NCBI RefSeq assembly: GCF_003730195.1 | Contig: NZ_QWGG01000015.1 | Location: 1 to 64,000, forward strand | DNA: 64,000 nucleotides | Source of the DNA: Halosimplex salinum | GTDB taxonomy: Archaea; Halobacteriota; Halobacteria; Halobacteriales; Haloarculaceae | Direction of reading: 5' to 3' | In this document: positions 23,285-38,578 of the stretch, one piece after another | Numbering within the stretch: position 1 is the first letter of the stretch | Layout of the letters: each line of letters opens with the position of its first letter | Translations under genes and position numbers: made by a program | The notes under the pieces: model-generated | Seen by the model: the letters and a program-made list of their open reading frames with translations, nothing else | What the model was told of the DNA's origin: nothing | The model's database searches: none

Positions 23285-24400
23285 ATGAATCGACGGAGCT
23301 TCCTCCACTCCGCGACCGGCGCCGCCGCGGTCGGGCTCGCCGGCTGTCTCGGTGACAGCGACGGGAGTACGCCGACCGAGACGGCGCGGTCGACGACAGT
23401 CGAACCGACAGCGTCCCCGCCCGAACGAACGGCGACGCCCGACGGCCCGTCCGGCGTCTACGTCCAGTCGTTCCGCGAGACGATGGTGATGCCCGGAACG
23501 GCGACGGCCGGCGACTACCGCTTCGCGCTGCTGGTCGCGGTCCCGCATCGATTCTGGACCGTCACGCTCGACGAGCGGTCAGTGACGCCAATCGAAGACG
23601 GCGAGGACGGCGACGACGTGCACCTGATGGCCGTCGTCTGGGACCCCGAGACGGGGACGGTCCTCCCGGACTCGGACCTCTCCGTCGAGATCACTCGCGA
23701 CGGCGACCTGGTCTCCCAGGAGGTCATCTACCCGATGCTCTCCCAGCGGATGGGGTTTCACTACGGCGCGAACTTCGGCCTCGACGGCGACGGCACGTAC
23801 GCGGCGCGGCTCAGCGTCGGCGGCCTGGGCGGCCGCACGACCGGCGAGTTCGACGGCCGGTTCGAGGACCCCGCCACCGCCGACGTCGAGTTCGAGTGGT
23901 CGAAGCAGGTGCGCGAACAGTTGAAGACCGAATCGATCGACGAGGCGGGCGAGCGCGGTGCGCTCCGCCCCATGGAGATGGGCGAGTTGCCCCAGGCCCG
24001 CGCACCGACGCCCGAGGACCTTCCGGGAACGGTCCTCGGGACGGGCCGGAGCGACGACGCGAAACTCGTCACGACGCAGGTGCCCGCCGCGGACGCGGAA
24101 CGCCTGACCGACGACGACCCGTACCTCGCGGTGTCGGCGCGGACGCCGTACAACAGGCTCGTGCTGCCGGCGATGAGCCTCTCGGCGACGGTCTCGCGGG
24201 ACGGCGAGACGGTGTTCGAGGGCTCGCTCCGGTCGACGCTCGACCCCGCGCTCGGCCACCACTACGGCACAGCCCTGCCCGAGCCCGTCGAGTCGGGCGA
24301 CGAGATAACCCTCTCCGTCGGGACGCCGCCCCAGCTCGCCCGCCACGAGGGGTACGAGCGGGCCTTCCTCCAGATGGACCCGGCGACGATCACCGTCTGA
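23285..24400 (+). CDS. TAT lipoprotein, P19/Tp34-like iron-binding protein
   Basis: A 371-residue exported lipoprotein. The signal is twin-arginine (MNRRSFLHSATG) with lipobox LAGC. After a Thr/Pro-rich linker, residues about 55-200 resemble the P19/Tp34 iron-transport domain: YRFALLVAVPHRFWTVTLDE, DVHLMAVVWDPETG and the metal-ligand stretch MLSQRMGFHYGANFGLDGDG. P19 proteins bind Cu/Fe in the periplasm and help Fe uptake. The C-terminal half is a second Ig-like domain. It would act on the outer face of the membrane. The next gene starts one base after its stop, so they form an operon. Confidence 0.8.
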   Translation: MNRRSFLHSATGAAAVGLAGCLGDSDGSTPTETARSTTVEPTASPPERTATPDGPSGVYVQSFRETMVMPGTATAGDYRFALLVAVPHRFWTVTLDERSVTPIEDGEDGDDVHLMAVVWDPETGTVLPDSDLSVEITRDGDLVSQEVIYPMLSQRMGFHYGANFGLDGDGTYAARLSVGGLGGRTTGEFDGRFEDPATADVEFEWSKQVREQLKTESIDEAGERGALRPMEMGELPQARAPTPEDLPGTVLGTGRSDDAKLVTTQVPAADAERLTDDDPYLAVSARTPYNRLVLPAMSLSATVSRDGETVFEGSLRSTLDPALGHHYGTALPEPVESGDEITLSVGTPPQLARHEGYERAFLQMDPATITV

Positions 24401-24401
24401 G

Positions 24402-25451
24402 ATGGTCGACCGCCTGCCCCACCCCTCCCGACCGGTCGTCGCGCTCACGCTCGCGCTCCTGCTGGCCGCGCCGCTGGCCGTCGCGACCGCTGGGGCCCAC
24501 GGCAACCACGTCGCCGTCGACTCGCAGGTGACGAGCGACGGGACCGTCGTCGTTGAGACGGTCTCATCGCCGACGCCGGGGTTCGTGGTGCTCCGCGCCG
24601 ACGACGGCGGTCGCCCCGGCGACCCGCTCGGGAACGAGTACGTCGGCCGGACGCCGAACCAGACGTTCCTGGCGGACGTCCCGATCCGGATCGACCCCTC
24701 GACGTGGGACGAGTGGGCGGGGAACCGAACGATCTGGGCCGTCCTGCACGGCGACGCGAACGGCAACGAGGCGTTCGACTACGGCGCGGACCTCGCGATG
24801 ACGGACATCAATCCCGCGGCGAGTACGCGGTTCACGGTCGGGAAGGGCGACTCGACCGAGGCGCGCGTCCTCGCCGCCGCGTTCGATCCGCTGCCGGTCA
24901 CCGACGGGGCCGTCACGCTCCGCCGGGTCGACCTGCCGGTCGCGGGCCACGTCGCCGTCCGACCGGTGGGTCAGAACGAGACCGTCGGCTCGCGCTCGCT
25001 CGACGCCGGGACCCATCGGAACGTCACCGTCTCGCTGGACGAGTCGTTCCTCGCCGAGCAGGAGCGGGACTTCCGCGTCCGGGTGGTCGCCCACCGCGAC
25101 GACGGCGACGGGACCTTCGGCCCGGACGACCCGCCGATCACCGCGGGCGGCGACCCCGTCGGGACCTACCTCAGCGTCGCGCCCGAGGAACACTCCGACG
25201 GCACCGACGAACCGCTGATCAACACGCCGTCGGCGACTGCGACGCCCGACGCGTCGTCGGGATCCGCGACCGCGATCGCCGAGGACCCGTCTGCGTCCGC
25301 GCCGACCGAAGACTCGACCCGCGAGCCGACCGACGACGAGCCGACAGCCCTCGATACCACCGTCGGATCGGGTCCCGGCTTCGGTGGGGCGCTCGCCGCT
25401 CTCGGGGTCCTGCTCGTGGCCGCGGCGCTGGTCGGTCGACGCGGCCAGTAG
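24402..25451 (+). CDS. PGF-CTERM surface protein with duplicated beta domains
   Basis: A 349-residue Sec-exported protein: signal helix VVALTLALLLAAPLAVATA, cleavage near AGAHG, two similar beta domains of about 110 residues (QVTSDGTVVVETVSSPTPGF and VDLPVAGHVAVRPVGQNETV begin them), a Ser/Thr/Pro-rich stalk, and the PGF-type C-terminal tag GPGFGGALAALGVLLVAAAL followed by GRR. Archaeosortase A would cleave the tag and attach lipid. The domains resemble haloarchaeal DUF7282 units. Operon partner of the P19-like lipoprotein; a joint role in metal capture at the surface is inference. Confidence 0.82.
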   Translation: MVDRLPHPSRPVVALTLALLLAAPLAVATAGAHGNHVAVDSQVTSDGTVVVETVSSPTPGFVVLRADDGGRPGDPLGNEYVGRTPNQTFLADVPIRIDPSTWDEWAGNRTIWAVLHGDANGNEAFDYGADLAMTDINPAASTRFTVGKGDSTEARVLAAAFDPLPVTDGAVTLRRVDLPVAGHVAVRPVGQNETVGSRSLDAGTHRNVTVSLDESFLAEQERDFRVRVVAHRDDGDGTFGPDDPPITAGGDPVGTYLSVAPEEHSDGTDEPLINTPSATATPDASSGSATAIAEDPSASAPTEDSTREPTDDEPTALDTTVGSGPGFGGALAALGVLLVAAALVGRRGQ

Positions 25452-25493: not shown

Positions 25494-27722
25494 TTACAGG
25501 TAGTCGCCGTCGACGGTCACGGTGACGGACTCGCCGTCGACGAGGAGGTCGTAGTCGCCGGCCTCCACGCGGTGGCCGTCGCCGGGGGCGTAGACGCCGA
25601 ACCGTTCGGCGGGCACCTCGACGGTCACCGTCGCTTCCTCGCCGGCGTCAAGATCCACGCGCTCGAACGCCTGGAGGCGTCGCTCCGGCATGACGAGCGT
25701 CTTCGACTCCGTCGTGCTGTACACCTGGACGACCTCGGTGCCGGCGCGGTCGCCGACGTTCTGAACCGTCACGTCGAGTTCGACGGTGTCGCCCGGTCCG
25801 ACGACCGACTCGTCGACCGAGAGGTCGCCCGTCTCGAACTCGGTGTAGGTCAGGCCGTGACCGAACGGGTAGAGCGGGTCGTAGGAGTCGGGGTGCTCGT
25901 GGTCGCCGATGGGGCGGGGCTGGTGGAGGTGGTCGTGGTGGAGGTCGACCTGCGCGCCCGAACGCGGCATCGTGACCGCGAGACGGCCGCTCGGGTCGTT
26001 CTCGCCGACGAGCGTCTCGGCGACGGCCTTGCCGCCCATCGTCCCGGGGAAGTAGGCCATCAGGAGGGCGTCGGCCTGCTCGCTGAGTTTCTCGACCGCG
26101 AGGGGGCGACCGGTGACGAGGACGCCGACGACGGGCGTCCCCGTCTCGACGACGGCGTCGACGAGCGCCTGCTGTTCCTCGGCGATGTCGAGCTGCTCGC
26201 GCGTCGGGAACTCGCCGGTCTCGGTGCGCGGGGAGCCGGCGCCGAACTCGTGGAGGTACCACCCCTCACCGAGCGCCAGCACGGCCACGTCCGCGTCGGC
26301 GGCCTTCTCGGCGGCCGCGTCGACGTCGAGCGTGTCGTGGAGCCCCGCGCCCTGCTCGTAGCTGACCTCGCCGTCGACGTGATTCCGGATCTCCTCGAGG
26401 ATGGTCGTCCCGTCGACGTGTTCTTCCTCCTCGACGGACCAGCCGCCGACCTGGTGGACGAGGTCGTCGGCGTTCGGCCCGCCGACGAAGACGTCCTCCT
26501 CGCCGGAGATCGGCAGGAAGTCGTCGTTCTTCAGGAGGGTCAGCGAGTCGCGGGCGACGTCGAGGGCCACTCGCTGGTGCTCGTCGGCGCCGACCGTCTC
26601 GAGCGCTTCGTCCCTGTCGACGTAGGGGTCCTCGAACAGTCCCATGCGGAACTTGCGTTCGAGGACGCGCTCGACGCTCGCGTCGAGGACGGACTCGTCG
26701 AGGTCGCCGGACTCGACGAGGTCGACGAGTTCGTCGACCTCGATGTCGTTGCCGACGGAGGCCACGTCGAGACCCGCCGTGCGGGCGTCGTAGGTCGCTT
26801 CGCGCAGATCCGCGGCGGTCTTGTGGTCGTCGGTGAGGTGGCGGACGCCGCCCCAGTCGGAGACGATGGTGCCGTCGAAGCCCAGATCGCCCCGGAGCAG
26901 GTCGGTGAGCCAGCGCTCGGACCCGTGGACGGGCTCGCCGTTGATGGAGTTGTAACACGGCATCACCGACTCGACGCCGGCGTCCAGCGCGGCCTCGAAC
27001 GGCGGGACGAACGTGTTGCGGAGCTTGTACTCCGAGACGTCGACCGGCGCCGCGTCCTCGCCGCGTTCGGGCTCGCTGTAGGCGGGGAAGTGCTTGGCCG
27101 TCGAGACGACGGTGGCCTCGGCTTCGAGTCCGTCGCCCTGGTAGCCGCGGACCTTCGCGGCCGCCATCTCGGCGACGAGCCGCGGGCTCTCGCCGAACGT
27201 TTCGAAGACGCGGCCCCAGCGGGGGTCACGACCCACGTCGCAGGTCGGCGAGTAGTTCTGGTGAGCGCCCGTCGCCGTGACCTCGGTCGCGGTGATCCGG
27301 GCGCCGGCCTCGATAGTCTCGGGGTCCCACGTCGCCGCGGCGCCGAGTCCGTTCGGGAACACCGTCGCGTCCGCGACGTACGCGTGCCCGTGGACCGCGT
27401 CCACGTTGAGGAAGAGCGGGATCCCGAGGCGCGTCTCCTCGGTCGCCGTCTCCTGGAGTTCGTTGACGATGTCGACGATCTCGCCCACCTCGGTGCCCGC
27501 GGAGCCGCCCCACCCGAACGGCGCCGCACAGCCGAGGTGTTTCTCGCGGACGAGGCCTTTCACCTCGTCCACGTCGACGTCCCGGTGCATCTCGCCGGCC
27601 CACGTTCCGACTAGCTGACCGGCCTTCTCCGCCACTGTCATCCTGTCGAGGAGATCCGAGACCCGCCGCGAGACCGGAAGATCCGGGCGTTGATACTCGG
27701 GATCCGCGTCACTCGATGGCAT
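25494..27722 (-). CDS. Glycoside hydrolase family 3 (beta-glucosidase-type)
   Basis: A 742-residue GH3 enzyme. The TIM-barrel domain (about 20-330) has DVGRDPRWGRVFETFGE, STAKHFPAYSEPERG and the nucleophile Asp in DGTIVSDWGGVR. The alpha/beta sandwich domain (370-590) begins with SLTLLKNDDFLPI and holds PFGHGLTYTEF at its end; a fibronectin-III-like domain closes the protein. It has no signal peptide, so it hydrolyses oligosaccharides in the cytoplasm, probably beta-glucosides or beta-xylosides. ATG 27722 (MPSSDADPEYQ) is preferred to an in-frame upstream extension. Confidence 0.93.
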   Translation of the reverse strand: MPSSDADPEYQRPDLPVSRRVSDLLDRMTVAEKAGQLVGTWAGEMHRDVDVDEVKGLVREKHLGCAAPFGWGGSAGTEVGEIVDIVNELQETATEETRLGIPLFLNVDAVHGHAYVADATVFPNGLGAAATWDPETIEAGARITATEVTATGAHQNYSPTCDVGRDPRWGRVFETFGESPRLVAEMAAAKVRGYQGDGLEAEATVVSTAKHFPAYSEPERGEDAAPVDVSEYKLRNTFVPPFEAALDAGVESVMPCYNSINGEPVHGSERWLTDLLRGDLGFDGTIVSDWGGVRHLTDDHKTAADLREATYDARTAGLDVASVGNDIEVDELVDLVESGDLDESVLDASVERVLERKFRMGLFEDPYVDRDEALETVGADEHQRVALDVARDSLTLLKNDDFLPISGEEDVFVGGPNADDLVHQVGGWSVEEEEHVDGTTILEEIRNHVDGEVSYEQGAGLHDTLDVDAAAEKAADADVAVLALGEGWYLHEFGAGSPRTETGEFPTREQLDIAEEQQALVDAVVETGTPVVGVLVTGRPLAVEKLSEQADALLMAYFPGTMGGKAVAETLVGENDPSGRLAVTMPRSGAQVDLHHDHLHQPRPIGDHEHPDSYDPLYPFGHGLTYTEFETGDLSVDESVVGPGDTVELDVTVQNVGDRAGTEVVQVYSTTESKTLVMPERRLQAFERVDLDAGEEATVTVEVPAERFGVYAPGDGHRVEAGDYDLLVDGESVTVTVDGDYL

Positions 27723-29194: not shown

Positions 29195-31420
29195 TCAGTC
29201 CCCGGCGGCCTGGTCGGTCTGGAACTCCTCGTCGGGGCCGACGAGTTCGGCGCCCTCGAGGGGTTCGCTCTGCCAGTACTCGTGGTCCGGGTCCTCACGG
29301 AAGCAGGCGGCACCGTTGCCTTCGCCGCCCTCCACGTCGTACAGCGGCGGCTTCTGCTCCGTACAGGCCTCCCGAGCGACGGGACACCGGGTGTGGAAAC
29401 GACAGCCCGACGGCGGGTCGACCGGGTCGGGCACGTCGATGGACCGCATCGGCGGTTCGCCGGCCTCGACGGCGTCGAGGTCGAGCGTCGGCGTCGCCCA
29501 GCGCAGCACCTTCGTGTAGGGGTGGCGCGGGTCCTGGATGAGTCGCTCCGCGGTGCCGATCTCCACGATCTCGCCGAGATACATCACGGCGATACGGCCG
29601 TCGCCGTGCTCCGTGAAGTACCGCGCGTTCGAGAGGTCGTGGGAGATGAAGAGGAACGAGGTGTCGAACACGTCCTGCAGTTCGAGCATCAGGTCCATCA
29701 GCTCGACGCGCAGACTCACGTCGACGGCGCTGATGGCCTCGTCCGCGAGGATCGCGTCCGGGTTCATGAGCAGCGCGCGCGTCAGCGCGACGCGCTGTTT
29801 CTCGCCGCCCGAGAGCTGGTGCGGGTACCGGTCGGCGAAATCGGCCGGCGGGTTCATCCCGACGCGGTCGAGCAGCGAGTAGATCCGGTCTCGGCGTTCG
29901 TTCCGGCTGATGTTCGGGTGGGTGTGCCGGAGCGGTTCCGACAGGATGTCGACGATCCGGCGGTTCGGATTGAGCGACGCGCCGGGGTCCTGGTGGATGA
30001 TCTGCATGGCCTGCCGGACCTCGTCGTACGACCGCTCCGTGTTGCCGGCCTTGGCCTCCCAGATGTCCGTCCCGCGGAACTTGACGCTCCCACCGGTCGG
30101 GCGCTGGAGCCCGATGGCGGTCTTGCCCAGCGTCGTCTTCCCGCATCCGGACTCGCCCAGCAGGGCGACGACGTCGTTCTCGTAGATGTCGAGGTCGATG
30201 CCGTCGACGGCCTTGACGATGTCCGGGTCGTCGCCGAAGATGTCGAACAGTCCCTGCTCCTCCTCGAAGTGGACCTCGACGTCGTCGAGCGAGAGGACGG
30301 CCTCTTCGCCGCGTTCGGGCGACACGTCGCGGTCGAACGCTTCCTGGTCGCGCTGCGCGGTCGCCGCGTCCTCGCCGTAGTTGAGGGCGATCTCCTCGCG
30401 GGCCTGTTCCCAGTGGTGACAGGCCGTCCGATGACCGTCGTCGTCGATGGTCTCGAGGGGCGGGTCGTCGCTGACACACTCCTCGGTCGCGAGCGGACAG
30501 CGGGGGTGGAAGCTACACCCTTCCGGAACGTTCACCGGAGCCGGCCCCTCGCCCTCGATGGGCTGCATCTCCGAGAGGGGCGCGTCGAGGTTCGGCGTCG
30601 CGTTCAGCAGCTTCCGCGTGTACGGGTGACCCGCGTCCGCGATGATCTTGTCGCGGGAGCCGACCTCGACGAACTGGAACGCGTAGATGATGCTCATCCG
30701 GTCGGCCAGCGCCGTGATCAGCGGCAGGTCGTGCGTGATGAACGCCAGCGTCAGGTCGTAGGTCTTCTGGAGGTCGTTCAGCAGCATCAGGATCGACCGC
30801 TGCATCAGCAGGTCGAGCGCCGCCGTCGGCTCGTCCATCACCAGCACCTCCGGTTCCAGCACGAGCGACAGCGCGATGAGCGCGCGCTGTTGCATCCCGC
30901 CGGAGAGCTCGTGGGGGTACGCGTCGAGGACGCGCTCGGGCTCGAGGTACAGGTTCTCGAGCAGTTCCCGGGCGAAGACCATCCCCTCCTCGACGTTCTT
31001 GTCGTGGGCCTTCAGGGTGTCCCGGAAGTGGGCCCCGACCTTCATCGTCGGGTTGAACGAGGACATCGCGCCCTGGAACACCATCGAGATCTCCTCCCAG
31101 CGGAACTTCCGGAGTTCCTCGTCGCTCTGTTCGAGGACGTCGACCGTCCCGCCGCTCTCCGGGTGATACAGGATCTCGCCGGTGAGTCTGCCGGGGTCCG
31201 GGATCGAGTCGAGCAGTGCCGATGCGAACATCGACTTGCCCGACCCGGACTCGCCGACGATCCCCAGCACCTCGTCGCGTTCGATGTCGATGCTCACGTC
31301 GTCGAGGACGTACGTCTCGCCGTCGTCGAAGGTCACTTTCGCGTTGTTGACCTCGACGACGGGGTCCTCGACCGTGGAGTGAACCGTCGCGTCCGCCGTC
31401 GTTCGCTGATCGGTTGCCAT
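29195..31420 (-). CDS. Fused dipeptide/oligopeptide ABC transporter ATPase (DppD-DppF)
   Basis: A 741-residue protein with two complete ABC ATPase domains in one chain. Domain 1: Walker A GESGSGKS (56-63), signature LSGGMQQRA, Walker B VLVMDEPTAALD, then the oligopeptide-family Cys motif CSFHPRCPLATEEC. Domain 2: Walker A GESGCGKTT (about 420-428), signature LSGGEKQRV, Walker B region ILADEAISAVD, and CRFHTRCPVAREAC. The Cys motifs are those that bind Fe-S or metal in DppD-type subunits. In most species these are two genes. It directly follows the permease gene (TAAATG) in a four-gene operon and would energise uptake of peptides or similar solutes. Confidence 0.94.
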   Translation of the reverse strand: MATDQRTTADATVHSTVEDPVVEVNNAKVTFDDGETYVLDDVSIDIERDEVLGIVGESGSGKSMFASALLDSIPDPGRLTGEILYHPESGGTVDVLEQSDEELRKFRWEEISMVFQGAMSSFNPTMKVGAHFRDTLKAHDKNVEEGMVFARELLENLYLEPERVLDAYPHELSGGMQQRALIALSLVLEPEVLVMDEPTAALDLLMQRSILMLLNDLQKTYDLTLAFITHDLPLITALADRMSIIYAFQFVEVGSRDKIIADAGHPYTRKLLNATPNLDAPLSEMQPIEGEGPAPVNVPEGCSFHPRCPLATEECVSDDPPLETIDDDGHRTACHHWEQAREEIALNYGEDAATAQRDQEAFDRDVSPERGEEAVLSLDDVEVHFEEEQGLFDIFGDDPDIVKAVDGIDLDIYENDVVALLGESGCGKTTLGKTAIGLQRPTGGSVKFRGTDIWEAKAGNTERSYDEVRQAMQIIHQDPGASLNPNRRIVDILSEPLRHTHPNISRNERRDRIYSLLDRVGMNPPADFADRYPHQLSGGEKQRVALTRALLMNPDAILADEAISAVDVSLRVELMDLMLELQDVFDTSFLFISHDLSNARYFTEHGDGRIAVMYLGEIVEIGTAERLIQDPRHPYTKVLRWATPTLDLDAVEAGEPPMRSIDVPDPVDPPSGCRFHTRCPVAREACTEQKPPLYDVEGGEGNGAACFREDPDHEYWQSEPLEGAELVGPDEEFQTDQAAGD

Positions 31421-32452
31421 TTAGACCATCCCCTTCGACGTCGTCTCTTCGCCTTCCTCTGCAGTCGATTCTGACTCGCCGGCGAGTCGGGTACGGACCC
31501 GCGGGTTGAACACCCGGTCGAGGCCCTGCCCGAGCAGGATCATCGACAGCGAGAGGCCGACCACGGCGATCATCGGCGCGATGATCCAGTGGGCGGCCGC
31601 GGGGACGAACAGCGCCCCGTTCTCGTAGGCCCGCGACATCGTCACGCCCCAGGTCGGATCCGAGTAGGGCAACACACCCAGGAAGAACAGCCCGACCGAC
31701 GCGAAGATCGTGTAGCGTGCGGCGAACACGAAGTTCACCGTCACGTACGGCATCAGGTTCGGGATGACGTCCTTCCAGAGGATCCGGACCGTGGAGGTCC
31801 CCATCGTCCGGGAGGCCTCGACGTAACTGTCTTCGCGGATGGTCAGCACCTGCGAGCGCAGCGACCGACCCAGCCCCGCCCAGTAGTTGATCGTCAGGAT
31901 GACCCCGACGAAGATCGGATTCTCCGGACTGAACGTGATTGCGAGGATGATCACCAGCGGGAGGCCGGGGATCGCCATGAAGAAGTCCGAGATGGACATC
32001 AGGACGGTGTCGACGGTCCCACCCTTGTAGCCGGCGAGGGTCCCGACGATGACCGCGACGCCGGTCGCCCAGACGCCGCCGGCAAGCACCATGAGCAGGA
32101 CGTCGGGCGTCGCGTGGATGATCGAGGCGGCCAGGTCGACACCCGAGTTCGTCGTCCCGAGCGGGTAGGCCCAGTTCTCGAACATCCCGAGGAGCCGGGG
32201 CGCCTGACTCGAACTCGGCGCTCGCCAGAGCCCGAGGACGGCCACCAGCGCCACCGCGACGTAGACGCCGAGCAACAGGAGGCCCAGCCGGGTCCGCATG
32301 TCCGACCACGCGACGACCCCGGGCTCGTAGATGCTTCGCTCGTAGAACTCGCGGAGGCGGTCCCCCCGAGTCATGTTCGCGCCCGAACTCTCACTCTGCC
32401 AGTCGAGCCCCTCTGCCGGGGCGTCCGATTCAGTATGCTTCACTGGAATCAC
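31421..32452 (-). CDS. dppC: Peptide-type ABC transporter permease, DppC-like
   Basis: A 343-residue inner-membrane permease. An N-terminal extension of about 50 residues precedes the first helix (RLGLLLLGVYVAVALVAVLG), the usual DppC layout. The ATPase-contact (EAA) loop is EASRTMGTSTVRILWKDVIP. Six membrane helices can be counted. The start is GTG 32452, overlapping the upstream dppB-like gene by 23 bases; a second GTG at 32443 is possible. The stop abuts the ATPase start codon. Confidence 0.93.
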   Translation of the reverse strand: MIPVKHTESDAPAEGLDWQSESSGANMTRGDRLREFYERSIYEPGVVAWSDMRTRLGLLLLGVYVAVALVAVLGLWRAPSSSQAPRLLGMFENWAYPLGTTNSGVDLAASIIHATPDVLLMVLAGGVWATGVAVIVGTLAGYKGGTVDTVLMSISDFFMAIPGLPLVIILAITFSPENPIFVGVILTINYWAGLGRSLRSQVLTIREDSYVEASRTMGTSTVRILWKDVIPNLMPYVTVNFVFAARYTIFASVGLFFLGVLPYSDPTWGVTMSRAYENGALFVPAAAHWIIAPMIAVVGLSLSMILLGQGLDRVFNPRVRTRLAGESESTAEEGEETTSKGMV

Positions 32453-33434
32453 CTTTGCTGATGCGCGGGTCTATCTTCCCGTAGGTCAGGTCAGCGATGT
32501 ACACGCCGACGACCAGCGCCACCGTGATGACGAGGAAGGTGCCCATCATCATCGGGTAGTCGTTCCTGTTGACGGCGTTGAGTAGTTCGAGGCCCAGACC
32601 GGGGTAGTTGAAGATCTGTTCGAGGATGATCGTCCCTCCCAGCCGGAACCCGAGCAGCAGCAGGAACCCGGTGTACATCGGCAGGATGGCGTTGCGCGCC
32701 ACGTAGCGGGTCGCGATCCGCCCGTCGGAGAGGCCGCGAAGTCGTGCGACCTCGACGAAGTCCTCACCGAGCACCTGGATGCTGTTGCCACGCATCGCCA
32801 GCGCCTGCGCGCCGACCCCGACGATAGTGTACGACAGGATGGGGAGCGCTCCGTGGCGAATCACGCTGATCACGTACTCGAGACTCCACTGGTTCTCGAT
32901 ACTGGGGTCGGCCGTCCCCGAGGGGGGGAACAGCGACCACCGGTACGAGAAAAACAGCAGGAGCAGGATCGCGAGCACGTAGAACGGGATCGACATCCCC
33001 GCGATCGAGACCGAAGAGACGGCCGTGTCGAACCTCGACCCCTCCCAGTAGGCTTGGATTGCCCCGAGCACGATCCCCCCCGCGAACATGAGCACCGTCG
33101 AGACGACGACGATGAAGATAGTCCACGGTGCCGCTCGTGCGACGATGTCGACGACCGGACGGCTGTAGTGGATCGACTGACCCAGGTCGAGCTGGAGCGC
33201 CGCGCTCATGTAGTCGAAGTACTGTACCCACAACGGCGCGTCCGGCTGGACGTTCTGCAGGTTTGCGATCTGCTTGTTGACCTCCTCCGGCGGTAACCCC
33301 TGTCTCAGCAACTGGACTCGCAACTGCGTGAACGGTCCTCCCGGAAGCAGACGGATCAGGCCGAAGGTGAGCGACATCACCGCAAAGATGGTGACGAACA
33401 CCCTGGCTGTCCGCCGCACGTAATAATTAACCAT
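32430..33434 (-). CDS. dppB: Peptide-type ABC transporter permease, DppB-like
   Basis: A 334-residue permease with an uncleaved first helix (ARVFVTIFAVMSLTFGLIRL), a long external loop containing PEEVNKQIANLQNVQPDAPL, and the EAA loop VEVARLRGLSDGRIATRYVA. The C-terminal region LGFRLGGTIILEQIFNYPGL is a standard DppB feature. It pairs with the DppC-like protein to form the translocation channel. It is the second gene of the operon, 118 bases after the binding-protein gene. Confidence 0.94.
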   Translation of the reverse strand: MVNYYVRRTARVFVTIFAVMSLTFGLIRLLPGGPFTQLRVQLLRQGLPPEEVNKQIANLQNVQPDAPLWVQYFDYMSAALQLDLGQSIHYSRPVVDIVARAAPWTIFIVVVSTVLMFAGGIVLGAIQAYWEGSRFDTAVSSVSIAGMSIPFYVLAILLLLFFSYRWSLFPPSGTADPSIENQWSLEYVISVIRHGALPILSYTIVGVGAQALAMRGNSIQVLGEDFVEVARLRGLSDGRIATRYVARNAILPMYTGFLLLLGFRLGGTIILEQIFNYPGLGLELLNAVNRNDYPMMMGTFLVITVALVVGVYIADLTYGKIDPRISKGDSSEAY

Positions 33435-33552: not shown

Positions 33553-35400
33553 TTACTCCTTGGCGGTCAGCTTGCCCGCGCGGGGCAGCCAGAACGGCGG
33601 CCACTTGATACCGCGCTCGGGGTCGCCCTCCTGGATGTCGACGTTCCAGTCGTCGGTGGTCACCCAGGACTGCTCGAACTTGGAGACCAGCGACAGCATC
33701 GGCAGGTCGTAGTTGTTGTGCCAGGCGGCCTCCTGCACGATGGGCTGGGCCTCCTCGGTGGTCGCGACCGTCCCGATCTCCTCGACCTTCTCGAGCGGGT
33801 TGAGCGTCATCTCGCCGTCGCCGCTCATCGCCGGGATGGTCTGGTCGGACTCGGTGTCGTAGCTGTGTCCGCCGTCCAGCGCGTCCAGCACCAGCTGGTG
33901 GCGCAGCGGGAAGTACGGGAAGGTCGAACGGGCCTGGCCGGGCAGCCAGAAGAACCCGCCGAACTGGAAGTTACCCTCGATGTACTCGCCGAACAGGTCG
34001 CTGGTCGGGCGCGTCGCAATGGAGACGTCGAACCCGAAGTCGTTGAGGCGGTCGACGACCGTCTCGGTCATCGCCGTCCAGTCGGTCCAGCCACCGGGCG
34101 TGAGGTACTCGACGCTGATCTCCTCGCCGTCGGGAGTCATCCAGGTGTCGCCTTCCTTCGAGTAGCCGGCGTCCTCGAGGATCTGGGTCGCCGTCTCCTG
34201 GTCGGACTCGTCGACGCCGTAGTCGTTGAACTGGCCCTTGGTGTCGCCGAGCCACTCGTCGATGTTACGCGGCGCGATCCCACAGGGGATCTCGGCCGGG
34301 AACTTCGTGCGCGGGCCCGCGTTGTCGACCAGTTCCTGTCGGTTGACGACGTAGGCGATGGCGTGTCGGACGGCCCGGTCGCCGAAGATCGGGTCGTCGT
34401 GGTTGAAGATCATCCCGTAGCCCCACTTGGCCGGGATGGTCTGGACCTCCATCACGTAGTCCTGGAACGCGTCCACCGTCTCGGGGCCGGCGAACATGCT
34501 CCAGACGCTGTCGAACCGGCCGCCGCCGGTCGTGAAGTCCTGCTGGGGCGTCGACGCTTCCTGATAGGCGTCGAACTGGTAGTCCGAGAAGTTGACGTTC
34601 TCGATGCTGTGGAACTCCTCGTTGCGCTCGAAGTTCCACTGCTGCTGGTTCTTGTCGACGTAGCGCCAGGCGCCGCTCGTGACGACGTCGGTGTCGCTGT
34701 CCTCCCAGTTCCACTGCTGGACTTCGGAGGCGTCGGCGTCGAGGAACTGCTCGAACGCCGCGTGGGGCGTGTCGATCCACATGTTACCCAGCTGGTGTTT
34801 GACCATCACGGGGTTGGTCGGGCCAGTGAGGTTCATCTGGAACGTGTAGTCGTCGACGACCTCGGTGCTCTCGACGTAGCCCCAGATGGCGCTGCCGGTC
34901 TTCTCGAGGATCTGGAACTGGGTGTCGATGTCCTGGGTGGTCACGTCGCTGCCGTCGGACCACGAGAGGTCCTCGCGGAAGGTTAGCGTGACCGTCTCGT
35001 TCTCGAACTCCCAGTCGTCCAGCGCCGCGAGCTGGAACTCGTTGGTCTCGAAGGAGTACGCTGCGTAACGGTCGAACGCCAGCCGTCGTGCCGGCTCGGA
35101 GGCGATCTGCGTGTTGTGGTTGTTGAGCGTCCGGTTGGTCGGGTCGGCCTGGAGGCCACTCGAGTGAGTCTGGTCGACGACGGTCGTGCTACCGCCGTCG
35201 GACCCGTCGCCGCCGTCGGACCCGTCACTGCCGTCGGACCCGTCGGACCCGTCGCTGCCGTCGGACCCGCCGTCTTCGTTATCTGTCTCCCCGCCATCTC
35301 CACCACACCCTGCGAGCGCAGCGGCGCCGGATGCTCCCGCCAGTGTCAGGAACTTCCGCCGGTCGATGACGTCGCTGTACTCTTTTGTGCTGTCAGACAT
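33553..35400 (-). CDS. Extracellular solute-binding lipoprotein, family 5 (peptide type)
   Basis: A 615-residue TAT lipoprotein: twin Arg in VIDRRKFLTLAGASGAAALA and lipobox LAGC. A low-complexity linker of Gly-Ser-Asp triplets (about residues 45-70, encoded near 35185-35275) tethers the domain to the membrane. The mature part has SBP-5 features: LRFDRY-like YDRYAAYSFETNEFQ, FREDLSWSDGSDVTTQDI and ravRhAIayvVNRQELVDN-like segment around residue 350. It captures the solute for the permease/ATPase set encoded downstream. A TATA-like CTTTTATGAA lies about 30 bases upstream. Confidence 0.93.
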   Translation of the reverse strand: MSDSTKEYSDVIDRRKFLTLAGASGAAALAGCGGDGGETDNEDGGSDGSDGSDGSDGSDGSDGGDGSDGGSTTVVDQTHSSGLQADPTNRTLNNHNTQIASEPARRLAFDRYAAYSFETNEFQLAALDDWEFENETVTLTFREDLSWSDGSDVTTQDIDTQFQILEKTGSAIWGYVESTEVVDDYTFQMNLTGPTNPVMVKHQLGNMWIDTPHAAFEQFLDADASEVQQWNWEDSDTDVVTSGAWRYVDKNQQQWNFERNEEFHSIENVNFSDYQFDAYQEASTPQQDFTTGGGRFDSVWSMFAGPETVDAFQDYVMEVQTIPAKWGYGMIFNHDDPIFGDRAVRHAIAYVVNRQELVDNAGPRTKFPAEIPCGIAPRNIDEWLGDTKGQFNDYGVDESDQETATQILEDAGYSKEGDTWMTPDGEEISVEYLTPGGWTDWTAMTETVVDRLNDFGFDVSIATRPTSDLFGEYIEGNFQFGGFFWLPGQARSTFPYFPLRHQLVLDALDGGHSYDTESDQTIPAMSGDGEMTLNPLEKVEEIGTVATTEEAQPIVQEAAWHNNYDLPMLSLVSKFEQSWVTTDDWNVDIQEGDPERGIKWPPFWLPRAGKLTAKE

Positions 35401-35567
35401 GCTTCTGATAGGTTATTAGCGGGGGTTCATAAAAGTTTGGAAAGATAGTTATTGTTCGAAAGGAGAACGTTTCGTCCGTTTCGCTGAGCCGAACCGATCG
35501 GTCACGCCGACCGCCCGAATTCTCCCGGTAGAAAGAGTTTTGGGTGGCAGTCGACAACTCTCAGAGA

Positions 35568-36923
35568 ATGCTACCGGACAGAGACCGCGGCCTGAGCCGC
35601 AGGGACTTCGTCGCTGCGGCGGTCGCTATCGGTGGGTCGAGCGCTCTCTCCGCGTGTCTCGACCGCGAGGGGTCGCTTCTCGACGGCCGTGACGGGCCCG
35701 AGTCCCCGACGGCGACCGAGTCCGAAGACGCGCTCGCGGACCGCTCGGTCCCGTCGGGGGATCCGGACGCGGTCCCGGCGCGTCAGCACGCCTGGAACGA
35801 GTACATCGTCCACGACGCCCACGACAACACGGTGATCCCCCAGCAGCAAGTGTTACTCGGGCTCACCTACGAGGGCTCTGTCCCGCCGACCGAGGCGGAA
35901 CGCGAGCAGGTCGAATCGGCGCTGCAGACCCTCGAACGCGCCTTCCAGTGGGGGACCGGTGGGGACCCGACCGCGTCGTTCACGCGCGGGCTGCTGTTCA
36001 CACTGGGGTACGCGCCGCAGTATTTCGAGCGGACCGGCGACGTTCCCGATCAGCTCAGACCGCCCGAGGCAGTCCTCGAGGCCGTCGGTGAAGACCCGTC
36101 GAACGCCGACGACTTCGACGCGCTCCTGTTGCTGACGAGCGATATCGGGTCCGTCGTGATGGCCGCCGAGCAAGCGCTGTTCGGCGAAGCCGCCGTCGTC
36201 AACGGGGTCGAAGTATCCGAATCGCTGGAGGGCGTGTTCTCGCTGGCCGAACGCCGGACCGGGATCGTCGGGAAGGGGAATCCCGCCGAGGAACTCGACA
36301 ACGAGTCGATCCCGGAGGACGCCCCGCTGTCGATGGGGTTCAAGTCCGGCTTCAGAGACAGTCAGCCCTCCGAAGACCGGGTCACTATCCAGGAGGGGCC
36401 CTTCGCCGGTGGGACGACCCAGGCGGCGTCCCGGCTCCACATCGACCTCGAACGCTGGTACGACCAGCCCCACGAGGAGCGAGCCGCGGAGATGTTCTGT
36501 CCGGCCCACGACACCGACGAGATCGGCGAGATCGGCGAGCGGCTCGGCGCCGAGAGCAGGATCACGGAGGAGAACGCCGAGAACGTGGAGGCGTACGCGG
36601 AGGAGTACGGGCGCGTGGGACACACCCAGAAGGTCGCGGCCGCCCGCGACGACGAGTTCGTGCCGACGATCCTCCGGCGGTCGGAGGGCATCGCGACGGA
36701 CGTCTCCGACCTCGACGGCGGGACGGACTTCAACTTCACCAGCCATCAGCGCCACGTCGACGACTTCGTCGAGACGCGCAAGGCGATGAACACCGACGAG
36801 TACGACGACGACGTCCCCGCCGAGAACCACGGTATCATCGACTACCTCGAGACCAGGCACCGCGGAACCTTCCTGATCCCGCCCCGTGACGAACGAGCGC
36901 TGCCGACCGGTGTGGACGCATGA
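35568..36923 (+). CDS. Secreted DyP-type peroxidase-like lipoprotein
   Basis: A 451-residue TAT-exported protein: RGLSRRDFVAAAVAIGGSSA with lipobox-like LSAC. The body resembles dye-decolourising peroxidases: the distal Asp motif GFRDSQP (Asp264), then FAGGTTQAASRLHIDLERWY, which matches the DyP GGSY..R/WD segment, and a haem-ligand candidate His352 in VGHTQKVAAARDDEFVP, followed by ILRRSEG. Haem binding is therefore plausible but needs proof, since the GxxDG motif is altered. ATG 35568 is chosen over GTG 35544. Its stop overlaps the CRTAC1 ATG (ATGA), implying coupled translation. It is divergent from the ABC importer. Confidence 0.72.
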   Translation: MLPDRDRGLSRRDFVAAAVAIGGSSALSACLDREGSLLDGRDGPESPTATESEDALADRSVPSGDPDAVPARQHAWNEYIVHDAHDNTVIPQQQVLLGLTYEGSVPPTEAEREQVESALQTLERAFQWGTGGDPTASFTRGLLFTLGYAPQYFERTGDVPDQLRPPEAVLEAVGEDPSNADDFDALLLLTSDIGSVVMAAEQALFGEAAVVNGVEVSESLEGVFSLAERRTGIVGKGNPAEELDNESIPEDAPLSMGFKSGFRDSQPSEDRVTIQEGPFAGGTTQAASRLHIDLERWYDQPHEERAAEMFCPAHDTDEIGEIGERLGAESRITEENAENVEAYAEEYGRVGHTQKVAAARDDEFVPTILRRSEGIATDVSDLDGGTDFNFTSHQRHVDDFVETRKAMNTDEYDDDVPAENHGIIDYLETRHRGTFLIPPRDERALPTGVDA

Positions 36924-38578
36924 CCGGCACACCGACGGGGCGTCGGGCGGCGATGACCGTCGCCGTCGCCGCGCTCCTCGTCGTCTCGGGGTGTACCGGC
37001 GCCTTCGGCGGCACTTCGGAGTCCGACGACAGCGCCGAACTCGGCTTCGAGAACGTCACGCGGGAGGCGGGCCTCGACTACGAGGGGACGGGCACCGGTG
37101 CCGGCAACGGGAACTCCGGCGTCTACACGGCCGACGTGGACAACGACGGCTGGGAAGACCTGCTCGCGATCGGCGGCGAGCGGCCCGTGCTGTACCGCAA
37201 CACCGGCGGCGAGTTCGACCGTTCGGGCGCGCTCCCGTCGCTCGAGCGCCCGTTCAAGAGCGCGACGTTCGTCGACTACGACGGCGACGGCTGGCGCGAC
37301 CTGCTCCTGTTCGCCCACGACGGCGAAGCGGTCGCGCTCCACAACGACGAGGGGACCTTCGAGCGCGACGACGTCGGTCTCGACGACCTCACGTACCCGC
37401 TGGGCGCCACCGTCGCGGACTACGACGGCGACGGCGACCGGGACCTGTTCGTCTACCAGTCGGGCGACTGGGCCGACGAGCGGCCGGACGGCTACTTCAG
37501 CACCAACAGGTCGATCGCCGACGACAACGGCAACCCGAACGTCCTCTACGAGAACACCGGCGACGGGTTCGAGCGCGCTGACGCCCCCGGCATCGAGGGC
37601 GACCGCTGGAGTCTGGCCGCGAGCTTCGTCGACCTGACCGGCGACGGCACCCCCGACGTCCACGTCGCCAACGACTACAACAACGACACCGTCTACCTGA
37701 ACCGGGGTGACGGCACCTTCGAACAGCGCCAGCTCGGCGGTCCGACGGCCCGCAACGGGATGGCCTCCGAGATCGGGGACGTGAACGGCGACGGTCGACC
37801 GGACGTGTTCGTCACCAACATCGACATCCCCGTCTCCCGCGAGAACATGTCCGCCGAGCGCTTCGACCGCCTCAAGCGGTTCCTCGACTTCGTGATCCAC
37901 TCCGGGCGGACGAAGGGGAACACGATGCTCGTCAACGAGGGCGACGGGCGGTTCGACGATCAGGCGCCCGCGTACGGCGTCCGACAGGGCGGGTGGGGCT
38001 GGGCCGCCAGCTTCGCCGACTTCGACAACGACGGCGATCGCGACCTGCTCCACACCACGCAGATCGTCGTTCGCCTCGACATGGACAACCCCGTCTACAC
38101 GCTCCCGATGATCTGGGAACGCGAGGGCGACGACTTCGACCGCCTGAACGCCTCGGCGCGCGGGTTCGAGGAGCACGACGGCCGCGGGATGGTGACGATG
38201 GACTACGACCGCGACGGCGACCAGGACGTCGTGATCGCCAGCTACCACGGCGACTTCGCCGTCTACGAGAACACGGCCGAGGCCGCCGACGCCGTCCAGT
38301 TCGAAGTCGTCGACGGGAACGGCGCCACCGCGCTCGGCGCGACCGCCACCGTCGAGGCCGACGGCACGGAGACCAGCGTCTGGCAGAACGCCCGCACCGG
38401 CTTCCTCTCGCAGGAGTCGCCCGTCACGCACGTCGGCACCGGCGACGCCGAGACGGTGACGCTCTCGGTGACCTGGCCCGACGGCGAGGAGGCGTCCTTC
38501 GAGGTGGACGCGAACGCCCGCTACCGCGTCACGCCGGACGGCGTCGAGACGGTGGCGAACCTCACCAGCGGCGACTGA
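36920..38578 (+). CDS. CRTAC1-family beta-propeller lipoprotein (FG-GAP/VCBS repeats)
   Basis: A 552-residue lipoprotein (lipobox VVSGC, Cys25). The propeller shows seven Ca-binding loops: DVDNDGWED, DYDGDGWRD, DYDGDGDRD, DLTGDGTPD, DVNGDGRPD, DFDNDGDRD and DYDRDGDQD. The C-terminal domain (GNGATALGATATVEADG, then VTWPDGEEASFEV) is the ASPIC/UnbV type. In the family such proteins sit outside the cell and bind partners or ligands. Overlap with the DyP-like gene by four bases suggests that the two products work together at the surface; that is inference. Confidence 0.9.
   Translation: MTGTPTGRRAAMTVAVAALLVVSGCTGAFGGTSESDDSAELGFENVTREAGLDYEGTGTGAGNGNSGVYTADVDNDGWEDLLAIGGERPVLYRNTGGEFDRSGALPSLERPFKSATFVDYDGDGWRDLLLFAHDGEAVALHNDEGTFERDDVGLDDLTYPLGATVADYDGDGDRDLFVYQSGDWADERPDGYFSTNRSIADDNGNPNVLYENTGDGFERADAPGIEGDRWSLAASFVDLTGDGTPDVHVANDYNNDTVYLNRGDGTFEQRQLGGPTARNGMASEIGDVNGDGRPDVFVTNIDIPVSRENMSAERFDRLKRFLDFVIHSGRTKGNTMLVNEGDGRFDDQAPAYGVRQGGWGWAASFADFDNDGDRDLLHTTQIVVRLDMDNPVYTLPMIWEREGDDFDRLNASARGFEEHDGRGMVTMDYDRDGDQDVVIASYHGDFAVYENTAEAADAVQFEVVDGNGATALGATATVEADGTETSVWQNARTGFLSQESPVTHVGTGDAETVTLSVTWPDGEEASFEVDANARYRVTPDGVETVANLTSGD

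Follow-up and report, generated by a model that had tools for sequence, protein, structure and literature searches.

A DUF7405 protein with a predicted DyP/EfeB fold and its CRTAC1-type propeller partner in haloarchaea: a candidate surface oxidising module

Why does a haloarchaeon produce a member of the function-unknown protein family DUF7405 jointly with a CRTAC1-type propeller, both apparently exported? The question is raised by a gene pair at positions 35568-38578 in a stretch of 64,000 nucleotides from Halosimplex salinum (assembly GCF_003730195.1, contig NZ_QWGG01000015.1), which is called the window below. The first gene (35568..36923, + strand) codes for P0001, a DUF7405 protein of 451 aa, the second (36920..38578, + strand) for P0002, a CRTAC1-type protein of 552 aa. 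We propose that P0001 and P0002 constitute one exported surface oxidising module for carbohydrate acquisition in which a peroxidase of either of two folds works with the propeller, a reading to which we give an even chance. The parts of the pair belong to known folds. That the pair is kept beside sugar-uptake genes, and that its enzyme is sometimes swapped for an unrelated peroxidase, suggests an oxidising module of a new type that serves carbohydrate feeding.

The gene pair and its conservation

The two genes are positioned head to tail. At the junction, ...gacgcATGAccg..., they share four bases, an ATGA stop/start overlap at 36920..36923 (+ strand), just as the original prediction had it for two open reading frames on one strand. 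ATG at 35568 is the likely start of P0001; an in-frame GTG is located at 35544. The N-terminus of P0001 carries a twin-arginine motif (LSRRDFVAAAVAIGGSSALSAC) and a lipobox-like LSAC, and the lipobox C30 is kept in 46 of 47 aligned relatives. The N-terminus of P0002 is hydrophobic and ends with VVSGC, the Cys of which is aligned in 23 of 33 relatives. Judged by these signals, both proteins look exported and membrane-anchored.

A survey of 292 genomes of the class, haloarchaea by content, revealed DUF7405 in 262. Full-length CRTAC1 relatives amounted to 39 genes in 35 genomes, the best-scoring piece of every gene having E <= 4.1e-90. Pairing was examined in regions up to 20 kb around CRTAC1 genes, supplemented by four more genomes from the genus of the window and by the window itself, a total of 45 CRTAC1 genes. 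The genes in these regions stem from a codon-usage caller with approximate starts (the window CRTAC1 was placed at 36953). DUF7405 directly adjoins CRTAC1 in 35 of 45 cases, 28 times co-directionally with DUF7405 first and seven times convergently. The caller reported an exact 4-base overlap in 14 of the 28 co-directional pairs, to which the window pair is added. P0001 as the query against the 292 genomes had its top 31 matches (E <= 7.1e-120) at CRTAC1 loci without exception, each adjoining CRTAC1; the next match (G053, E 1.1e-106) is at a DUF7350-type locus. The near-obligate pairing in other genomes, the absence of which would have told against the original prediction, is thus evident from both partners. 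Its maintenance in two orientations speaks for selection acting on the pair, not for operon inertia.

Two observations stand by themselves. In a small genome of 2.3 Mb, CRTAC1-like genes occur five times in one region (L116, G286:C53, 858-19218), interspersed with several members of a further exported family (c24); DUF7405 is matched six times in this genome, and a different contig carries a vanadium haloperoxidase. Further, a second CRTAC1-like subfamily (L151-L170) of about 450-510 aa has no evident signal peptide, is apparently cytosolic and has conserved housekeeping surroundings. DUF7405 was absent from the 20 kb regions of all 20 loci. These weak-match loci were left out of the pairing counts.

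Predicted structures and active site

P0001 is a clear member of DUF7405 (PF24152, 405.3 bits at a cut-off of 27.1, E 2.5e-121). A profile of 47 sequences searched against the PDB yielded weak matches to DyP peroxidases (E 0.05-0.15). An AlphaFold model built with the same number of rows (pLDDT 84.6, pTM 0.88) gave a uniform picture: among the matches listed, 50 of 50 in Foldseek (E from 1.1e-13) and 50 of 50 in VIA-align (Z 24.4-26.1, best DtpAa 8omc and EfeB 6jbn) are of the DyP/EfeB type. One structure, 2iiz, is filed under another title, yet is a Shewanella DyP relative. The alignment of the DUF7405 profile against nine DyP/EfeB sequences by hhalign resulted in a probability of 97 and an E-value of 1.1e-10 over 357 columns. 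Because the model matches DyP/EfeB-type proteins in both structure searches, we consider the fold settled: P0001 is predicted to possess the double ferredoxin-like fold of DyP/EfeB haem peroxidases, as anticipated. The model does not fold as a vanadium haloperoxidase (PAP2/VCPO fold). The canonical DyP family (TIGR01413, E <= 1e-20) was absent from all 116 related genomes inspected. In a sequence-only PDB search of P0001 the top match was BURRH (E 6.5e-8), which was discarded as spurious, i.e., many weak repeats on the signal-peptide region.

What remains of the peroxidase active site? In a profile alignment with E. coli EfeB and eight other DyPs, the EfeB sequence G232-F-K-D235-G236, a GXXDG motif that contains the catalytic Asp, aligns with G257-F-K-S260-G261 of P0001. 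Of the 47 sequences, 29 have Ser and 18 have Ala at position 260 and none has Asp; the catalytic residue is lost. H352, the presumed proximal haem ligand, is invariant (47/47), and so are R370, the distal Arg, and R371. The spacing of 18 residues between H352 and R370 equals that between H329 and R347 in EfeB, a register which was read by eye and at which hhalign puts a 4-residue gap. Of the two residues that the original prediction considered as retained, His352 stands. Asp264 is not the catalytic Asp, the place of which is taken by S260 four residues ahead; it is Asp in 23 of 29 CRTAC1-linked and in 0 of 18 other DUF7405 sequences.

Is P0001 then a dead member of the fold, a porphyrin binder or a structural subunit, and the pair a scaffold? 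The replacement of Asp by Ser or Ala in all 47 sequences is in line with such a view. Nevertheless, the proximal His and the distal Arg are kept throughout, and in two genomes an enzyme family takes the place of DUF7405 (see below). According to a review, the catalytic Asp is critical in the DyP from Bjerkandera, yet in Rhodococcus DypB it is Arg, not Asp, which is essential (PMC8197335). On account of the latter, an Asp-free activity of P0001 is possible, though unproven. Chlorite dismutases, which belong to the same superfamily, also use a distal Arg, as stated in a further article (PMC7611857). A dead enzyme appears very improbable to us.

P0002 has seven FG-GAP_3 stretches and an ASPIC/UnbV domain (UnbV_ASPIC, E 2.9e-12), both over the Pfam cut-off. 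Seven DxDxDG loops are at residues 72, 119, 167, 238, 287, 367, and 428. In the PDB the sequence matches 9etn (E 1.1e-10), and by profile it is next related to integrin alpha and to the PVL-type propeller lectins of fungi. The model, built on 33 rows with a pLDDT of 87.8, is seven-bladed and most similar to murine CRTAC1 (9etn, Z 37.4 over 440 residues), followed by ADAM22 (31.1) and fungal aldos-2-ulose dehydratase (29.6). The calcium-binding propeller with seven loops that had been predicted is supported, and it is of the CRTAC1 type. CRTAC1, cartilage acidic protein 1, is known mostly as a marker in human cartilage and blood.

Conceivably, the propeller itself is a sugar-active enzyme or a lectin, and DUF7405 handles peroxide arising from sugar oxidation, i.e., serves protection and not attack. 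The closest structural match, CRTAC1, has to our knowledge no assigned enzymatic activity, and no oxidase gene is constantly adjacent at CRTAC1 loci. On the other side, aldos-2-ulose dehydratase is among the structural relatives and the PVL-type lectins among those by profile, and a propeller survey unites such propellers in the VCBS superfamily (PMC8023676). On balance we consider this alternative unlikely. A role in cell contact, which also had been suggested, has no support beyond fold similarity to the integrin-type propeller superfamily.

Partner exchange and gene neighbourhoods

One argument for the view that P0001 and P0002 form an oxidising module is an exchange of partners. In two haloarchaeal genomes (G160 and G062) the gene after CRTAC1 codes for a vanadium haloperoxidase (G160 copy against PDB 4cit, E 5.7e-14). 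The two haloperoxidases are 75% identical, and the corresponding CRTAC1 sequences nest within the DUF7405-linked CRTAC1 clade (support 99). Full-length haloperoxidase relatives are restricted to five genes in four of the 292 genomes; with only four carriers, two of the four have the enzyme beside CRTAC1. The pair outlives a swap in which the new enzyme has no relation to the old one except its reaction class; this points to selection of the reaction, not of the protein.

A further haloarchaeon, G226, has two vanadium haloperoxidase copies (L171 and L172), one with an in-frame stop; no CRTAC1 was found nearby, yet few genes were called there and absence is not established. In G119, which belongs to the genus of G160, a stretch of 32 residues matches the haloperoxidase C-terminus with 63% identity (L174, G119:C1:645362-645457), possibly the remnant of a decayed copy.

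A similar association exists in Bacteroidota. On a plasmid of Hymenobacter volaticus the genes for an arabinofuranosidase, SusC, SusD, an ASPIC protein of 1091 aa, a haloperoxidase fragment and a GH3 (glycoside hydrolase family 3) enzyme stand in a row. In 80 Bacteroidota loci a haloperoxidase is in the flank in 60 and directly downstream of the ASPIC gene in 52 (counted by script), numbers which are biased because the loci were gathered with the Hymenobacter ASPIC query, itself already near a haloperoxidase. A genome-wide count in 30 of the genomes concerned placed 55 of 121 haloperoxidases no more than 6 kb from a listed ASPIC gene, compared to 1.2 expected from density. This count comprised 121 haloperoxidase rows (E below about 1e-30, weaker ones dropped) and the best 150 ASPIC rows; because only the best ASPIC rows were considered, 55 of 121 is a lower bound for adjacency. 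Proximity varies with identity to the query: 45 of 51 haloperoxidases at >=41% and 10 of 35 at 35-40% are near a listed ASPIC gene. The Bacteroidota pairs are often in SusC/SusD loci. In four loci a haloperoxidase gene is located between two CRTAC1-type genes (L190 9890-17972, L205 9896-18283, L258 9842-16350, and L262 1841-8288).

The identity of the exchanged partner brings up halide oxidation as a defence, i.e., hypohalous acid or other oxidants generated at the surface in a high-chloride brine would guard a nutrient source from competitors. Iodine uptake by Arenibacter C-21 needs glucose, oxygen, and calcium, and a glucose oxidase together with a haloperoxidase is proposed there (PMC5064120). 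The strain is a precedent, also for the carbohydrate module proposed here, of a link between sugar, calcium and a haloperoxidase at a bacterial surface. However, DUF7405 is without known halide activity, and around the pair there are genes for uptake and glycosidases instead of ones for resistance or toxins. A defence function thus appears quite unlikely.

Which neighbours does the pair have? A tree of 57 DUF7405 sequences is divided by a branch with an SH-aLRT support of 100; on one side are 21 other loci, opposite are 35 CRTAC1-linked sequences and a copy from G287. The window genome has three DUF7405 copies, one CRTAC1-linked and two of the other branch. Nineteen of the 21 loci were picked as leading entries by Pfam score, the remaining two are these copies, and owing to this choice the set favours canonical members. 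Within 10 kb, the lipoprotein DUF7350, in which PF10634 marks an iron-transport stretch, is present at 16 of 21 other loci versus 0 of 40 CRTAC1 loci. The CRTAC1 loci have within the same distance an ABC ATPase (28/40), the solute-binding protein SBP_bac_5 (SBP5, 25/40), GH3 (15/40), and TrmB (9/40). The corresponding numbers at the other DUF7405 loci are 2 of 21 for the ABC ATPase and 0 of 21 for SBP5, GH3, and TrmB.

The window complies with this pattern. Divergent to the pair is an SBP_bac_5 gene (33553..35400, - strand; PF00496, E 1.6e-39), a neighbour which recurs at many CRTAC1 loci. It is separated from the pair by an intergenic gap of 167 bp, probably a shared control region. The encoded lipoprotein has a long Gly-Ser-Asp repeat linker behind its lipobox. 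Next are two oligopeptide/dipeptide-type ABC permeases and a fused ATPase (29195..33434, - strand; BPD_transp_1 twice, ABC_tran plus oligo_HPY) and a GH3 gene (25494..27641, - strand; PF00933/PF01915/PF14310), a candidate functional neighbour. Transporters of the oligopeptide/dipeptide type carry oligosaccharides in archaea. With an uptake system (SBP5, two permeases and ATPase) plus a glycosidase (GH3), the locus has the make-up of one for carbohydrate utilisation.

At 23285-25451 the window also has a second, iron-type cassette about 10 kb from the CRTAC1-linked DUF7405 gene. It consists of a DUF7350/Iron_transport lipoprotein gene (23285-24400) and a gene for a DUF7282 protein, the C-terminal region of which weakly matches S-layer/PGF-CTERM-type models. 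Among 15 window proteins scanned with Pfam (21.8-44.6 kb, apart from the pair, a subset of the window genes) there was neither an EfeU/Ftr1 permease nor an EfeO.

These data bear on iron acquisition, one of the functions originally considered. On this view P0001 would belong to an EfeB-like surface device for which the propeller is the scaffold and whose task is to strip or store the iron of haem, or else to oxidise ferrous iron. EfeB is among the best structure matches (6jbn, 2y4d, and 3o72), the other DUF7405 branch resides beside DUF7350/Iron_transport lipoproteins at 16 of 21 loci, and in the window such a gene is 11 kb from the pair. Yet the lack of DUF7350 at all 40 CRTAC1 loci, the separate clade of the CRTAC1-linked DUF7405 proteins and the fact that a haem-free vanadium enzyme can replace DUF7405 argue to the contrary. 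Iron acquisition suits the other branch, not the CRTAC1-linked one with its carbohydrate and ABC-uptake neighbours; for the pair we regard it as rather unlikely.

Proposed function and comparison with known systems

How might an oxidising module for carbohydrate acquisition operate? P0001 would be exported by the twin-arginine pathway, folded and with its cofactor, and be anchored outside with the co-made propeller. It would hold haem via H352 and react with peroxide through R370, the usual Asp not being needed. The peroxide may originate from sugar oxidases or from the environment. The propeller would dock the enzyme and/or a sugar-containing substrate. Oxidation of phenolic, glycan-linked or halide substrates could free saccharides, and the products would enter via the neighbouring ABC system with glycosidases cooperating.

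Several points weigh against this proposal. The DyP model TIGR01413 stays far below threshold on P0001 (15 bits at a cut-off of 100.5, residues 110-410), and with the catalytic Asp lost, P0001 may lack peroxidase activity or have it in weakened or altered form. For ten of the 45 CRTAC1 genes DUF7405 is not the direct neighbour: one is at a contig edge, one is a tandem copy beside a paired one, two are beside the vanadium haloperoxidase, one has DUF7405 about 9 kb off (L115/L176), and five are in one small genome (L116). GH3 is missing within 10 kb at 25 of 40 CRTAC1 loci. The exchange is confined to two haloarchaeal genomes and possibly is a single event, and in the two further haloarchaeal carriers the haloperoxidase is, as far as visible, not beside CRTAC1. 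In Bacteroidota none of 35 haloperoxidases of low identity (28-35%) is near a listed ASPIC gene. Finally, in seven CRTAC1 regions from Acidobacteria, Ruegeria, Leisingera and a Streptomyces plasmid, the genes found relate to sugars, polysaccharides or enediynes, and none is annotated as a peroxidase. In view of those seven, the association of CRTAC1 with peroxidases is not universal.

A wider generalisation is more tentative, a possibility rather than an expectation: prokaryotic CRTAC1-type propellers may largely be dedicated partners of exported peroxidases of any fold, DyP-like with haem in haloarchaea and vanadium-dependent in Bacteroidota and a few haloarchaea, jointly forming an oxidative glycan-utilisation module. 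The propeller would bind or transform sugar in the manner of aldos-2-ulose dehydratase and the peroxidase would use peroxide. In fungi, aldos-2-ulose dehydratase processes products of sugar oxidation within a pathway that generates peroxide. A fuel role is described for pyranose oxidase (PMC11650716). If the generalisation is true, the CRTAC1 family gets a testable biochemical role.

What is gained at this point? DUF7405, present in 262 of the 292 surveyed genomes, acquires a functional partner as well as a predicted fold and the residues of its active site. CRTAC1 propellers are linked with peroxidases in both archaea and bacteria, and haloarchaea and Bacteroidota that can be cultured allow the role of such propellers to be tested. 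Among the papers listed by our literature searches, none dealt with DUF7405 and none connected CRTAC1/ASPIC to peroxidases in prokaryotes.

A comparison with known systems shows where the pair is placed. With EfeB and the class I (A-type) DyPs, P0001 shares the predicted fold (Z 26), the putative export by the twin-arginine pathway, the proximal His and the distal Arg. It differs by the absence of the GXXDG catalytic Asp and a score under the TIGR01413 cut-off, and, compared to EfeB, its partner is a propeller and not EfeU/EfeO. Within DUF7405 it is an unambiguous member, yet in a CRTAC1-linked clade apart from the DUF7350-linked one. P0002 resembles the CRTAC1/ASPIC-UnbV family in its seven-bladed calcium propeller and ASPIC domain, and is distinguished by an archaeal lipobox-like N-terminus. 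Further, the haloarchaeal genes mostly adjoin a peroxidase-fold gene (35 of 45 DUF7405, 2 of 45 haloperoxidase). The pairs of CRTAC1 and vanadium haloperoxidase in Bacteroidota are alike in that carbohydrate loci directly couple an ASPIC propeller with an exported peroxidase; there, however, the peroxidase is of unrelated fold, the propeller protein is longer at about 1100 aa, and the gene order is usually reversed.

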